IMG/VR virus record: IMGVR_UViG_3300026367_000100
Location: 1 to 35,032 of that record
Direction: 5' to 3' (one strand)
Length of the DNA: 35,032 nucleotides
Source of the DNA: a virus
A program made the translations under genes and the position numbers. Positions 4,145 to 11,406 of this stretch are shown here, piece by piece. Within the stretch, counting starts at the first letter, position 1. Every line of letters begins with the position of its first letter. The notes below the pieces were generated by a model. That model worked only from the letters and a program-made list of their open reading frames with translations, was not told the origin of the DNA and did not search any database.

Positions 4145-4580
4145 GGCGCCTCAGGCGTTGCAGGGCAAAGGATATGACCGATCCGAACTCGCTTGGCCTG
4201 TCCGCGTCGTTGGCGACCACCCAGTCAGCAAGCTCGATAACCGTTTCGGCGGCGAGCACGCTGTTGTCCGGATTGTTGAACGCGCCTTCCTGGGCAAGAA
4301 CGGTGACCACATTGAACACCGCTGTCTTGTAGGCATCGAGCGAAGGCGCCGCGCCGAAATTTGGCACCGGTTCGCCAAAGGCGCGCGAGATCTTGCTGAC
4401 GGTAACGGTGGAAAGCAGGTGCTGGTGATCGGGATCGTTCACCAGGCGGGTCAATGTGGTTGGCGTCAACCCTGCCTTCTTGGCAACGCCGGTGATCGTC
4501 GTTGCGTGTTTGCTGACGATGCCCTGCAGCCAGAGGCGCTGCAGTTCGCGGATGTCGCTGGTCATATCGGAGGCAGTCAT
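4137..4580 (-). CDS. Phage repressor (XRE/C2-type helix-turn-helix)
   Basis: From the ATG at 4580 the product has 147 residues. The N-terminal domain carries a helix-turn-helix, VAKKAGLTPTTLTRLVNDPD, followed by the STVTVSKISRAFG helix that is characteristic of C2/CI-like repressors in Rhizobiales phages. The C-terminal part (about 75-147) is helical, and there is no obvious LexA-type Ser/Lys peptidase motif. It lies divergent to a Cro-like gene with a palindromic operator between. The 4580 start follows AAGAAGG at 11 bases; upstream in-frame starts exist at 4658 (ATG) and 4670 (GTG) but would run through the control region. Confidence 0.75.
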   Translation of the reverse strand: MTASDMTSDIRELQRLWLQGIVSKHATTITGVAKKAGLTPTTLTRLVNDPDHQHLLSTVTVSKISRAFGEPVPNFGAAPSLDAYKTAVFNVVTVLAQEGAFNNPDNSVLAAETVIELADWVVANDADRPSEFGSVISFALQRLRRHA

Positions 4581-4596
4581 TTGCGCCAATGCCTTC

Positions 4597-4618
4597 TTGC
4601 TCGCGTGTATTCGAGCAA
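4597..4618. promoter_or_regulatory. Inverted repeat TTGCTCG-N8-CGAGCAA
   Basis: Perfect seven-base arms with an eight-base spacer lie 17 bases upstream of the chosen repressor start. It may be a second operator class for autoregulation or a hairpin in the repressor mRNA leader. A leftward -10-like TAAAAT lies at 4648-4653, about 30 bases further upstream. Confidence 0.4.
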
Positions 4619-4693
4619 AAGAATGGGCGTTGTGGACCGCAGGATCTATTTTAAACATCACACTTGACACAAGGTACGCAAATCACAGAAGAG

Positions 4694-4707
4694 TTGCATT
4701 AATGCAT
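4694..4707. promoter_or_regulatory. Palindromic operator copy 2 (core TGCATTAATGCA)
   Basis: The core at 4695-4706 is a perfect 12-bp palindrome in the repressor/Cro intergenic region. It abuts TATTAT (4707-4712), a plausible -10 for the rightward Cro-like gene starting at 4729, so a bound protein would block that promoter. The near-identical copy is at 3725-3738. Confidence 0.6.
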
Positions 4708-4728
4708 ATTATCAAGAAGGTCAAATCC

Positions 4729-4971
4729 ATGCAGGCCGCAAACCACATTCCGACCCATGCCGCAATCATCAGCCGGGCCGCACGGATCGGCCTGCCGATC
4801 AGCCGGCTGGCAGATGAGGCGGGGCTCAACAAGTCGACGGTCAGCCGCTGGAAACGAGAAGCCAACGGCTCGAATGCGGCAAGCCTCAGCAAGATGGCCC
4901 AGCAGCTCGAACGGCGCGAACGGCAGATGCTGGCTTACCTGCTCGAACTCTACCCCGACATGGCGGCATGA
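4729..4971 (+). CDS. Cro-like helix-turn-helix protein
   Basis: The 80-residue product contains a clear helix-turn-helix, ISRLADEAGLNKSTVSRWKRE (about residues 24-44), followed by SLSKMAQQL, as in Cro/CI-family proteins. It diverges from the repressor and begins the rightward early operon, the position of cro or cII. The ATG at 4729 is chosen because AAGAAGG ends eight bases before it. The in-frame ATG at 4702 would lie inside the palindromic operator. Confidence 0.7.
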   Translation: MQAANHIPTHAAIISRAARIGLPISRLADEAGLNKSTVSRWKREANGSNAASLSKMAQQLERRERQMLAYLLELYPDMAA

Positions 4972-7993: not shown

Positions 7994-9868
7994 ATGGCCA
8001 AGGCACAGACACAGACCGGCAAGCGCGCAATCCGCGCCAAGTTTACCGACGCGATGCGCGCGCTCGATGATGAAAAGCCGCCGGTCTATTGCGACCCGAA
8101 CCAGCCCCGCGACGGCATCAAGCCCGGCGCGTGGACGGGCGCGCCCTTTGCCAACCTGCCGCCGGACTGCCCGGTGTCGGTTGTGGGCTTTGATGTGGAT
8201 CAAAAGCTGTGGCTGAAGAACGCGCGCGGCTACCTGATGGCGATCGAGCGGTTTGACGCCAACACGCTGACCGCCGCGTTCAGCCCGCAAACCGATTACC
8301 TGCTGTGGGCCTGGCCCGCATTCGGCGCGAAAAAGATCACCAACAGCGAGGGCGGCACAGAAGAAATCAAAATTGTCAAGCGGCTGGAAGTGCAGCAGGC
8401 GGCGATGTGCCTGCAGACCGAAGCGGGCCGCAAGCGGGTGTTTGATGCCCACACCATGCACCGTGGCCGTGGCGGCTGGGCCGACAAGCAGGACAATTTC
8501 ATATGGCATTCGGGCGACTGGCTGTGGCGCTCGGATCGCGGCAAGCTGACCTCGTCGCGGCCGGATGAATATGACGGGTTTCTGTATACGCGCGGCAAGC
8601 CGACAATCGAGCCCTGGCACGAGCCGGTGGCGACCGAGGAAAGCCCGGCCAAACGGATCCTTGACGATCTGGCGACATGGAACTGGCAGCGGCCTTACCT
8701 CGACCCGGTGCTGGTGCTGGGCTGGATTGCCAGCTCGATCATGGGCGGGGCGCTGAAAGCGCGGCCTATCGTGTTCACCACTGGCGGCCACGGCGTTGGC
8801 AAATCGACGCTGCACGAGCTGATTACCAACACGCTGCAGGGCGTGGTCAACACGGCCGTCGACACCACGGCGGCGGGGATCTACCAGAAGGCCAAGCATG
8901 ACGCGCTGCCGTTTCTGGTTGACGAGCTGGAGAGCAAGGCCGGATCCTCGAAAAACCAGTCCGTCATCGAGCTGGCGCGCGTGGCCTATACCGGCGGCGA
9001 CATTTCGCGCGGCGGGGCCGACCACGAGGGCACCACGTTCAAGATGAATTCATCGTTCATGTTTTCGGCGATCAACCCGCCACCCATGGGCGCGCAGGAC
9101 AAGAGCCGCATGGCGGTGCTGAACCTTGGGCGGCTTGAAGCCAATGATGGCGTGCGCAAGATGGTGGCGAACCTTGAGGAAGACGGCCGCATGATCCTGC
9201 GCCAGGTGCTTGACGGCTGGGCCGACTACAAGGCGCGGCTGTTGCCGGACTATTGGAAGACGCTGCACGACCAGAAGCTCGACAGCCGGGCAATCGACAC
9301 ATTCGGCACGCTGCTTGCTGCAGCCGAAATGCTGGTCGGGCCGGAAGCGCTGGAAGCCATCGGCCTGCCGGTGACGGATCAGGTGCAGATGGGCGAGATC
9401 ATCCGCCACGCGACACAGGCCGAGCGCGAGGAAAATCTCGACAACTGGCACAAGTGCCTGAACCAGCTTCTGGACAGCACAATCGACCAGTGGCGCGACG
9501 GCATCAAGCCGACTGTTGGCGGCGTCTGCGATGAAGCCTTGCGCGGTGCGCTCGAACTGCCGTTCGCGCGGGACCGGCTGGGGCTGGTGAATTGCGGGCT
9601 GATGCCGGCGGAACATCTGCCCGACGCGCAGGGGCCGCTGCTGGCGGTGCCAAAGACCGGCCCGGCGCTGATGCGGATATTCGACGGAACCGAGTTTCAC
9701 AAGGAAGTGCATTTCACGGCGCTGAAACAGGCGCCGCGCCACATCGTGATTTCAGATCGCGGCAACAAGCAGAAGGTGAAGATTGCAGGCGTGCCGAAGC
9801 ACTGCCTGCTTATCGATCTTTCGGCGTTTCAGCGCCATGCAGCGCCAGCAGATAGCGCCTCCGGCTAA
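7994..9868 (+). CDS. Phage replicative helicase (superfamily 3/AAA-type P-loop ATPase)
   Basis: The 624-residue product has an N-terminal domain of about 220 residues, then an ATPase core. Visible elements are Walker A GGHGVGKST (264-272), Walker B LPFLVDELE (305-313), a sensor-1 like SFMFSAINPP with Asn361, and an arginine-finger candidate in DKSRMAVLNLGRL (Arg372). This order fits virus-type D5/P4-like helicases that unwind the phage origin, although the C-terminal origin-binding part (about 400-624) is not recognisable by eye. The ATG at 7994 follows an 83-base gap with only a weak SD. It ends convergent with the antirepressor gene, overlapping by four bases. Confidence 0.8.
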   Translation: MAKAQTQTGKRAIRAKFTDAMRALDDEKPPVYCDPNQPRDGIKPGAWTGAPFANLPPDCPVSVVGFDVDQKLWLKNARGYLMAIERFDANTLTAAFSPQTDYLLWAWPAFGAKKITNSEGGTEEIKIVKRLEVQQAAMCLQTEAGRKRVFDAHTMHRGRGGWADKQDNFIWHSGDWLWRSDRGKLTSSRPDEYDGFLYTRGKPTIEPWHEPVATEESPAKRILDDLATWNWQRPYLDPVLVLGWIASSIMGGALKARPIVFTTGGHGVGKSTLHELITNTLQGVVNTAVDTTAAGIYQKAKHDALPFLVDELESKAGSSKNQSVIELARVAYTGGDISRGGADHEGTTFKMNSSFMFSAINPPPMGAQDKSRMAVLNLGRLEANDGVRKMVANLEEDGRMILRQVLDGWADYKARLLPDYWKTLHDQKLDSRAIDTFGTLLAAAEMLVGPEALEAIGLPVTDQVQMGEIIRHATQAEREENLDNWHKCLNQLLDSTIDQWRDGIKPTVGGVCDEALRGALELPFARDRLGLVNCGLMPAEHLPDAQGPLLAVPKTGPALMRIFDGTEFHKEVHFTALKQAPRHIVISDRGNKQKVKIAGVPKHCLLIDLSAFQRHAAPADSASG

Positions 9869-10635: not shown

Positions 10636-10865
10636 GCCCTCCGGTTTTGATTGGCGGCATGATGATCGGCATAGAGGGTTTCAACGCTCGAGCTGGCGCG
10701 GCCAAGCTCGGCAGAAATCGTGTTCATCAGATGCCCCAAGGGCGTGCGCATCTGCTGCCAGTCATCGCCTTCGGCGTGATCGAACAGGAAATGCGCGACC
10801 TGCATGAGGCCAAGCGCCGTTTCGACGGTGCATTCGGTGCGGACGAGGTGCGTGATAGTGGACAT
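10632..10865 (-). CDS. Small leader-controlled gene upstream of the antirepressor (icd position)
   Basis: The 77-residue product (MSTITHLVRTECTVETALGL onward) is helical and has no recognised family. Its SD (TTTGGAGA) is the target copy of a C4-type antisense RNA encoded just upstream, and its stop overlaps the antirepressor start as ATGA. This matches the P1 icd-ant arrangement, in which translation of the first gene is needed for antirepressor synthesis. The frame is open upstream to 11264, including a segment from an ATG at 10973, as often seen in icd-type leaders, but the SD supports the start at 10865. Confidence 0.65.
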   Translation of the reverse strand: MSTITHLVRTECTVETALGLMQVAHFLFDHAEGDDWQQMRTPLGHLMNTISAELGRASSSVETLYADHHAANQNRRA

Positions 10866-10871
10866 GGTTTT

Positions 10872-10895
10872 TCTCCAAATAAGCCAGCGACCAAA
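10872..10895 (-). promoter_or_regulatory. Downstream antisense target (seqC/a2-b2-like), includes the SD of the 10865 gene
   Basis: Leftward RNA reads UUUGGUCG (10895-10888) then UUUGGAGA (10879-10872), the latter being the SD of the gene starting at 10865. Both blocks are complementary to the middle segment at 10913-10937. GCCAG/CTGGC arms flank the first block, making a small hairpin. Confidence 0.65.
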
Positions 10896-10900
10896 CTGGC

Positions 10901-10971
10901 GGGTGAGCGACACCGGGTTGGTCGACCGTTGGAGAAACGGCAAGCCTTGCGGCTTCCCAATGCGCCCACCC
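10901..10971 (-). ncRNA. C4-like antisense RNA controlling the antirepressor operon
   Basis: Read leftward this 71-nt segment folds well. A nine-pair closing stem (10963-10971 with 10901-10909, one G-U) encloses an AAGCC-GCAA-GGCUU hairpin with a GNRA loop and a CCGUU-UCUCC-AACGG hairpin that displays an anti-SD loop. Next to it lies CGACCAA. The UCUCCAA and CGACCAA blocks are complementary to two flanking copies (10872-10895 and 11006-11025). This three-part plan is that of P1 C4 and P4 CI immunity RNAs, which silence the operon in the lysogen. The family assignment is by structure and context only. Confidence 0.7.
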
Positions 10972-10973
10972 AT

Positions 10974-10998
10974 AAAAAAACGCGCTACAAGAGCGCGT
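10974..10998 (-). terminator. Terminator-like hairpin inside the antirepressor leader
   Basis: Read leftward, a seven-pair stem (10992-10998 with 10980-10986, five-base loop) is followed by seven T residues (10980-10974). It lies between the upstream target copy and the C4-like RNA. It may be an attenuator or a processing signal that frees the RNA end. It has no T-run in the other direction. Confidence 0.65.
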
Positions 10999-11005
10999 GG
11001 GACGC

Positions 11006-11025
11006 TCTCCAAACCGGCGACCAAA
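11006..11025 (-). promoter_or_regulatory. Upstream antisense target copy (seqA/a1-b1-like)
   Basis: Leftward RNA reads UUUGGUCG (11025-11018), then CCGG, then UUUGGAGA (11013-11006). The two eight-base blocks are identical to those at the SD of the 10865 gene and complementary to the C4-like segment. Together the copies form the A-B-C arrangement of P4-type immunity leaders. Confidence 0.65.
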
Positions 11026-11030
11026 CCGGA

Positions 11031-11048
11031 CTCCACAAGGTTGTGGAG
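11031..11048. promoter_or_regulatory. 18-bp inverted repeat CTCCACAAGGTTGTGGAG
   Basis: Eight-base perfect arms with a two-base centre lie between the presumed leftward promoter and the first target copy. The position, close to the likely transcription start, suits an operator. It could instead be a hairpin at the 5' end of the leader RNA. Confidence 0.5.
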
Positions 11049-11050
11049 CG

Positions 11051-11084
11051 GTGCTAACGTGATCGCGTGTTGCGGGAATGTCAA
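11051..11084 (-). promoter_or_regulatory. Candidate leftward promoter of the antirepressor operon
   Basis: Read leftward, a consensus -35 TTGACA occupies 11084-11079. The -10 is unclear: the hexamer 17 bases on is CACGTT, and TTAGCA lies 21 bases on. Position alone supports it: it precedes the structured leader and no other leftward gene is near. Confidence 0.4.
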
Positions 11085-11097
11085 GGGGAGCGGCGGC

Positions 11098-11406
11098 GTG
11101 GTTCTATCGTTTGTGTTTGGATTGCTTGGCAAGCGCTGGTGGTGGCCAGCGATATTTGCCTTAAGCGGGCTCGCCTTCGAATTACTTGTTATCAATCCCA
11201 AGGTCCTAAACTGGCGGCGCGAGGCCGGGCTGACAGAAACAGGAGAATCAGCCCTCGCGGGCATTGCCGATATGGCGCTCTCGCTGGCGCTTGCGCTCTT
11301 GATGTCTTATCTGGCGTATTGGCTTGGTCTTGTTTTGAAGTACTACAGCACAGATTGGCTGCGCCTCTATAGAGACAGCCGCTCTCGCAATACACGCAAA
11401 GATTAG
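11098..11406 (+). CDS. Small membrane protein of unknown function
   Basis: The GTG at 11098 follows AAGGGGAG at seven bases and gives 102 residues. There are two hydrophobic regions (about 1-32, SFVFGLLGKRWWWPAIFALS, and about 52-80, ALSLALALLMSYLAYWLGLV), and a basic C-terminus (LRLYRDSRSRNTRKD) consistent with the cytoplasmic side. It diverges from the antirepressor leader and precedes the repeat array. There is no family match by eye. It could be an immunity or lysogeny accessory gene. No ATG start is available. Confidence 0.5.
   Translation: MVLSFVFGLLGKRWWWPAIFALSGLAFELLVINPKVLNWRREAGLTETGESALAGIADMALSLALALLMSYLAYWLGLVLKYYSTDWLRLYRDSRSRNTRKD

Follow-up and report, generated by a model that had tools for sequence, protein, structure and literature searches.

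An antisense RNA of the C4 family upstream of a Bro-N antirepressor gene in a temperate podovirus-like phage

According to the accepted mechanism in phage P1, the antisense RNA C4 represses translation of icd. The role of C4 and Icd in that phage has been summarised (PMC8201110), and in the satellite P4 the seqA element is an experimentally established target of the CI RNA for termination (PMC4825925, PMC10111431). Weinberg et al. (2010) described C4 together with an upstream motif, c4-a1b1, the latter given for gammaproteobacteria and phages (PMC2864571). Profiles of C4 and isrK have since been reported to pick up CI and seqA relatives beside genes of the Bro network (PMC10111431, 2023). The upstream element and its kinship with CI and seqA are already published.

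The locus described here lies in IMG/VR virus record IMGVR_UViG_3300026367_000100, of which we analyzed a stretch of 35,032 nucleotides (positions 1 to 35,032; hereafter the window). On the minus strand, the order of its elements is a1b1, C4, a2b2 with a leader open reading frame (ORF), and an antirepressor gene (Table 1). This is the gene order of P1 immI, with a small ORF coupled to the antirepressor by an ATGA overlap (10635/10632), and the coupling agrees with a reading made earlier from the letters and ORF translations (the sequence-only reading). The leader promoter is inferred from its conserved position: of 98 loci, 54 have TTGAC at a distance of 40–85 nt before a1, in most cases 60–61 nt (60 nt in the window), compared with 3.6% of shuffles, and a generic sigma-70 scan of the window did not list this site. 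An ORF that diverges from the locus (11098–11406, plus strand) and probably encodes a membrane protein has a likely GTG start 14 bases from the −35 element of this candidate promoter.

Table 1. Positions of the RNA elements and genes of the locus within the window
Feature	Position	Strand	Detail and basis
Candidate leader promoter	11056–11084	−	−35 TTGACA 11084–11079, 17-nt spacer, −10 CACGTT 11061–11056
Leader hairpin 1	11030–11049	−	RNA fold; matches Rfam isrK hairpin 1
a1-presenting hairpin	11014–11029	−	a1 = UUUGGUCG 11025–11018; sequence, fold, aligns to second isrK hairpin
b1 = UUUGGAGA	11006–11013	−	Upstream decoy or target copy; C4 contains its complement
Proposed antiterminator helix	10989–11009	−	GAGAGCGU 11009–11002 / GCGCUCUU 10996–10989; takes in 3′ half of b1
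Intrinsic terminator	10974–10998	−	ACGCGCU 10998–10992 / AGCGCGU 10986–10980 and U-run 10980–10974; terminator scan
Entire upstream element, isrK/seqA/c4-a1b1-like RNA	10975–11049	−	Full-length match to Rfam isrK RF01394, 32.4 bits
C4 antisense RNA	10895–10977	−	Rfam C4 RF01695, 57.1 bits; covariation
b′ UCUCCAA	10929–10935	−	Within a hairpin loop of C4
a′ CGACCAA	10918–10924	−	Single-stranded, C4 junction
a2-presenting hairpin (GCCAG/CUGGC)	10883–10900	−	a2 = UUUGGUCG 10895–10888
b2 = UUUGGAGA	10872–10879	−	Shine-Dalgarno of leader ORF; AUG at 10865
Leader ORF, 77 aa	10632–10865	−	Position of icd; stop overlaps antirepressor start (ATGA)
Bro-N antirepressor, 256 aa	9865–10635	−	Pfam Bro-N and PHROG anti-repressor Ant matches

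By its sequence, the RNA of the locus is clearly a C4-family antisense RNA, kin of those of phages P1 and P4. The Rfam C4 model (RF01695) matched 10977–10895 on the minus strand over model positions 1–87 of 87 with 57.1 bits (E = 1.2e-8 for the entire window), above its gathering score of 45 bits, which bears out the C4/CI-type assignment proposed by the sequence-only reading; with the same model, positive controls scored 68.8 (P1), 78.8 (N15) and 74.9 bits (P4). The fold proposed at the same time, with a nine-pair closing stem, a GNRA hairpin and a hairpin exposing UCUCC, was recovered on recomputation: in the predicted structure (−40.7 kcal/mol), nine outer pairs close off a GCAA hairpin and a second hairpin with UCUCC in its loop. 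Across 28 sequences, two-sided compensatory changes were found at 22 of the 27 pairs, a count that is inflated by kinship among the sequences. The model also matches phiKO2, Rhizobium phage RR1-A, Bordetella phage IFTN3 and Gifsy-1 (69.0 bits). Under stricter filters, matches above the cut-off were present in 59 of the 398 genomes sampled from Pseudomonadota and in 4 of the 385 sampled from the class of a Rhodoblastus record. Because the family is this widespread (59/398), the C4 of the window is an ordinary member and less exotic than first thought. Several genomes (G524, G625, G672, G694 and others) have at least ten C4 matches each, so that one bacterium may harbour ten C4 immunity loci or more.

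The Rfam isrK model (RF01394) aligned over its full length to the element upstream of C4 (11049–10975), but its 32.4 bits do not reach the gathering score of 50, and we therefore call this element isrK-like and not isrK. The upstream element of P1 itself is likewise under the cut-off (35.1 bits); those of P4, N15 and phiKO2 pass. In structure the window element agrees with isrK and seqA, comprising two hairpins, a copy of the target and an intrinsic terminator directly upstream of C4. The sequence-only reading had noticed the terminator-like hairpin and considered it a departure from a simple antisense leader. The hairpin is present (10998–10980, followed by the U-run), but it is standard in P1, P4, N15 and Gifsy-1, and it is not unusual here since it belongs to the known upstream element (c4-a1b1, seqA or isrK).

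Downstream, the GC content of the leader ORF by codon position resembles that of coding genes, and its 77-aa product has no family match in Pfam or PHROG. We dropped the ORF as a candidate icd homologue, having found 0 relatives in viral contigs and a best E value of 0.21 among other leader ORFs; judged by sequence, it resembles icd in position only. In many C4 loci (L032, L033 and others) there is no leader ORF and a2b2 immediately precedes the Bro-N gene. The second gene of the window locus is a Bro-N antirepressor, as had been suggested (Pfam PF02498, 94 bits, 6.6e-27; PHROG anti-repressor Ant, 1.7e-54). Its closest relatives are from Mesorhizobium, other Rhizobiales, Pseudovibrio and other alphaproteobacteria, and on this basis the host is probably an alphaproteobacterium. 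The record further contains an integrase gene (2733–1645), an excisionase-like gene and a terminase gene. Its structural genes code for a head-tail adaptor, for tail proteins and for a large virion protein, and the head-tail, tail and internal virion proteins resemble those of podoviruses, so that the phage can be considered temperate and podovirus-like. The initial description as a T7-like temperate phage of alphaproteobacteria accordingly stands for lifestyle (integrase, excisionase), holds broadly and in structure for T7 likeness, and for the host draws on the antirepressor relatives. The sequence-only reading also proposed that the RNA would add a second layer of immunity to that of the protein repressor; as a putative protein regulator of lysogeny, only a weak helix-turn-helix match at 4456–4971 (plus strand; CII-like or repressor PHROGs) was seen.

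Two copies of the target are read directly from the minus strand, at 11025–11006 and 10895–10872, where the sequence-only reading had placed them. Each comprises UUUGGUCG and, further downstream, UUUGGAGA, the latter with no additional occurrence in the window. Also as proposed, the antisense segment with b′ and a′ lies between the copies and is complementary to both, and the second copy supplies the Shine-Dalgarno sequence, with b2 preceding the AUG of the leader ORF. As expected of a C4 RNA, a′ and b′ are complementary to the downstream ribosome-binding region. Predicted duplexes of C4 have energies of −33.7 kcal/mol with a1b1 and −29.2 kcal/mol with a2b2.

We hold it highly probable that the locus is a C4-family antisense-RNA immunity switch, with a translational block and, as proposed additions, attenuation and an upstream decoy. 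A leader transcript running leftward from a promoter near 11084–11056 would carry the isrK/seqA-like element, C4 and the Shine-Dalgarno sequence of the leader ORF. Pairing of a′ and b′ with a2 and b2 would hide that Shine-Dalgarno sequence and, by analogy with P1, repression of the leader ORF would silence the coupled antirepressor. The antisense RNA very likely keeps the antirepressor off in the dormant phage. From sequence alone, C4 would also be expected to pair with a1, in its hairpin loop, and with b1; pairing with b1 would free the terminator, and C4 may in this way limit its own transcription and that of the antirepressor. Lastly, the short terminated upstream RNA could compete for C4 and release the antirepressor, as suggested by Gifsy-1.

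The attenuation step depends on a proposed antiterminator helix of 8 bp in the window. GCGCUCUU (10996–10989) shares bases with the terminator's 5′ arm (10998–10992), and the two helices are mutually exclusive. Since the antiterminator is held together by the 3′ half of b1, pairing of C4 with b1 would free the terminator. A MAFFT alignment of this region proved too uneven for pairs to be counted formally, and we used control terminators and a two-column contingency test instead. An antiterminator helix of at least 5 bp was found in 61 of 82 loci, compared with 11.5% of sequences shuffled with the terminator left intact. Among non-redundant loci the figure was 32 of 48, compared with 23 of 115 (20%) for control terminators at other places in these loci (p = 2e-8). 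At one antiterminator pair, G-C and A-U swap (p = 0.0007, for sequences that are not independent). The helix is short or absent in about a quarter of loci, and inspection by eye found at most 3 bp in Gifsy-1. For the nascent leader, the fold containing the antiterminator helix has a predicted energy of −29.1 kcal/mol, compared with −22.3 once b1 is made unavailable. At equilibrium, the terminator of the complete leader has a probability of 0.80 without C4 and of 0.96 with b1 blocked, a small effect; since equilibrium favours the terminator even without C4, the attenuation step would have to be kinetic. Together, these models suggest that C4 binding to b1 would favour termination and switch off transcription. 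We found no description of this switch in the more recent literature consulted, and it may have been proposed before.

The decoy step draws on published data from Gifsy-1. The orf45/STnc1160 region of this locus (NC_010392, 34316–34131; L189/L188) contains an RNA that passes the Rfam cut-off for C4, and the first AUG assigned to orf45 falls within the 5′ end of C4. Short IsrK supplied in trans raised a transcription fusion 8-fold and a translation fusion 139-fold, and the substitutions G28A/C162U and G31A/C159U are complementary changes (PMC4825925). The published IsrK numbering fits the Gifsy-1 record at 11 of 11 positions and places G28 and G31 in a1 (ATTGGCGT, 25–32) and C159 and C162 in a′ of C4, with ATTGGCGT recurring at 191–198 as a2; this mapping was made after the mutants were seen, and it is exact. 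So read, the mutants support the view that a1 pairs with a′ in vivo, a decoy role of the upstream RNA becomes plausible, and the C4 mapping gives the mutants a simpler reading. The authors of that study noted the parallel with P4 seqA and CI and preferred a different structural switch (PMC4825925).

These data also bear on the possibility that the upstream RNA is mainly a decoy, in which case the short terminated transcript would soak up C4, switch on the antirepressor and so serve as an input to induction, attenuation being secondary. IsrK in trans activates anrP and the a1 mutants G28A and G31A, whose bases face a′, fail to do so (PMC4825925, Table 1), and in the window the predicted binding of C4 to a1b1 is stronger than that to a2b2 (−33.7 versus −29.2 kcal/mol). 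Against a plain decoy, the IsrK effect was undiminished when STnc1160, that is C4, was co-expressed (PMC4825925). We consider a predominant decoy a tentative alternative, somewhat improbable on this analogy.

For the switch that combines block, attenuation and decoy, the evidence that sets both target copies on an equal footing comes from comparison among loci. In 28 loci, the antisense words match their own upstream and downstream copies by at least 6 nt in 24–27 of the 28, and the true pairing score was reached by 0 of 5,000 permutations that set antisense words against the targets of other loci. In a set of 101 loci, gathered in part by sequence pattern, words of at least 6 nt were found 98 (a, upstream), 86 (b, upstream), 99 (a, downstream) and 92 times (b, downstream), and all four complementary words reached at least 5 nt in 95. 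The a words comprise about 50 different strings, some of which are one word trimmed differently, leaving at least about 40 that are distinct. Because the words differ widely among loci, the matches reflect three-way covariation and are not explained by a common sequence. Compensatory changes in relatives, a check suggested by the sequence-only reading, are plentiful in the C4 fold, and likewise where the antisense words face each of their two targets. A hairpin presenting a2, formed when the 3′ strand of C4 pairs with bases beyond a2, has at least 5 bp in 90 of the 101 loci, a modest excess over shuffles (63%) from which we draw no conclusion. By sequence and covariation, the parts, their pairing and the family membership are shown.

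Two further observations concern loci that occur together. In L140, C4 matches at 8357–8444 and 8584–8671 (minus strand) lie about 140 bases apart, the second without recognisable targets of its own. In Pseudovibrio phages and genomes (L038/L047, L039/L048 and L043/L049/L051), C4 loci occur in twos or threes that differ in their a and b words, so cross-reaction of their specificities is not expected.

A narrower account is that C4 acts on a2b2 only and does not switch transcription, the upstream element being either an independent small RNA made close to the promoter or a relic. This would accord with translational repression of icd as the accepted mechanism in P1 and with a terminator that folds readily by itself. 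However, covariation with C4 is as tight for the upstream copies (a, 98/101; b, 86/101) as for those downstream, which argues that they are selected for pairing, and the equivalent element in P4, seqA, is an established target of CI for termination (PMC4825925, PMC10111431); we regard the narrower account as unlikely. That the repeats and hairpins are a chance or terminator-related coincidence, a view to which the 8-mer TTTGGTCG, recurring alone twice elsewhere in the window, lends something, is refuted by the covariance model match, the three-way covariation and the conserved gene order, and has a negligible probability.

The window adds a further C4 immunity region, in a phage group in which such RNAs are rarely noted. 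The locus itself has precedents, and its interest is in the general switch suggested by the comparison, which, with the same selection on upstream and Shine-Dalgarno copies in about 100 loci, is worth more than any single locus. The antiterminator and terminator would offer a testable route by which an antisense RNA causes the termination long known in P4. Whether C4-family RNAs in general attenuate transcription as well as repress translation, with the terminated leader titrating C4 back, is a question on which we are evenly balanced. If they do, P1 C4, P4 CI and Gifsy-1 IsrK would be one three-part RNA circuit in which the a and b words set immunity specificity. In their diversity, these words resemble a repertoire of immunity groups among phages, legible from sequence.

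Compared with described systems, the locus shares with the c4-a1b1 motif the conserved upstream a1b1 element of C4 loci; the motif is listed only for gammaproteobacteria and phages (PMC2864571), whereas we also find it in loci from alphaproteobacterial genomes. The P4-like and PICI immunity RNAs of the Bro zone (PMC10111431) are in satellites, in contrast to the full podovirus-like phage of the window. In P4, CI scores 74.9 bits with the C4 model, the isrK model gives 60.8 bits, and seqA and seqC correspond to a1b1 and a2b2; CI controls the satellite kil/eta and replication genes by termination, whereas the genes downstream in the window are the 77-aa ORF and the Bro-N antirepressor. Gifsy-1 has the order isrK, orf45 (STnc1160), anrP, that is, isrK (79.3 bits), then a C4 RNA (69.0 bits), then an antirepressor gene, but was published as an IsrK/orf45 messenger switch and not as C4, and the isrK score of the window is just 32.4 bits. 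With P1/P7 immI (C4, icd, ant; RF01695), the window shares the fold and model, a1b1 and a terminator-like hairpin upstream, and a2b2 at the Shine-Dalgarno sequence of a small ORF coupled to the antirepressor. It differs in the shorter spacing from the start of a2 to the start of b2 (16 nt, compared with 29 nt in P1), in a leader ORF that is not homologous to icd, in a different antirepressor and in its setting in a podovirus-like phage that is probably alphaproteobacterial.
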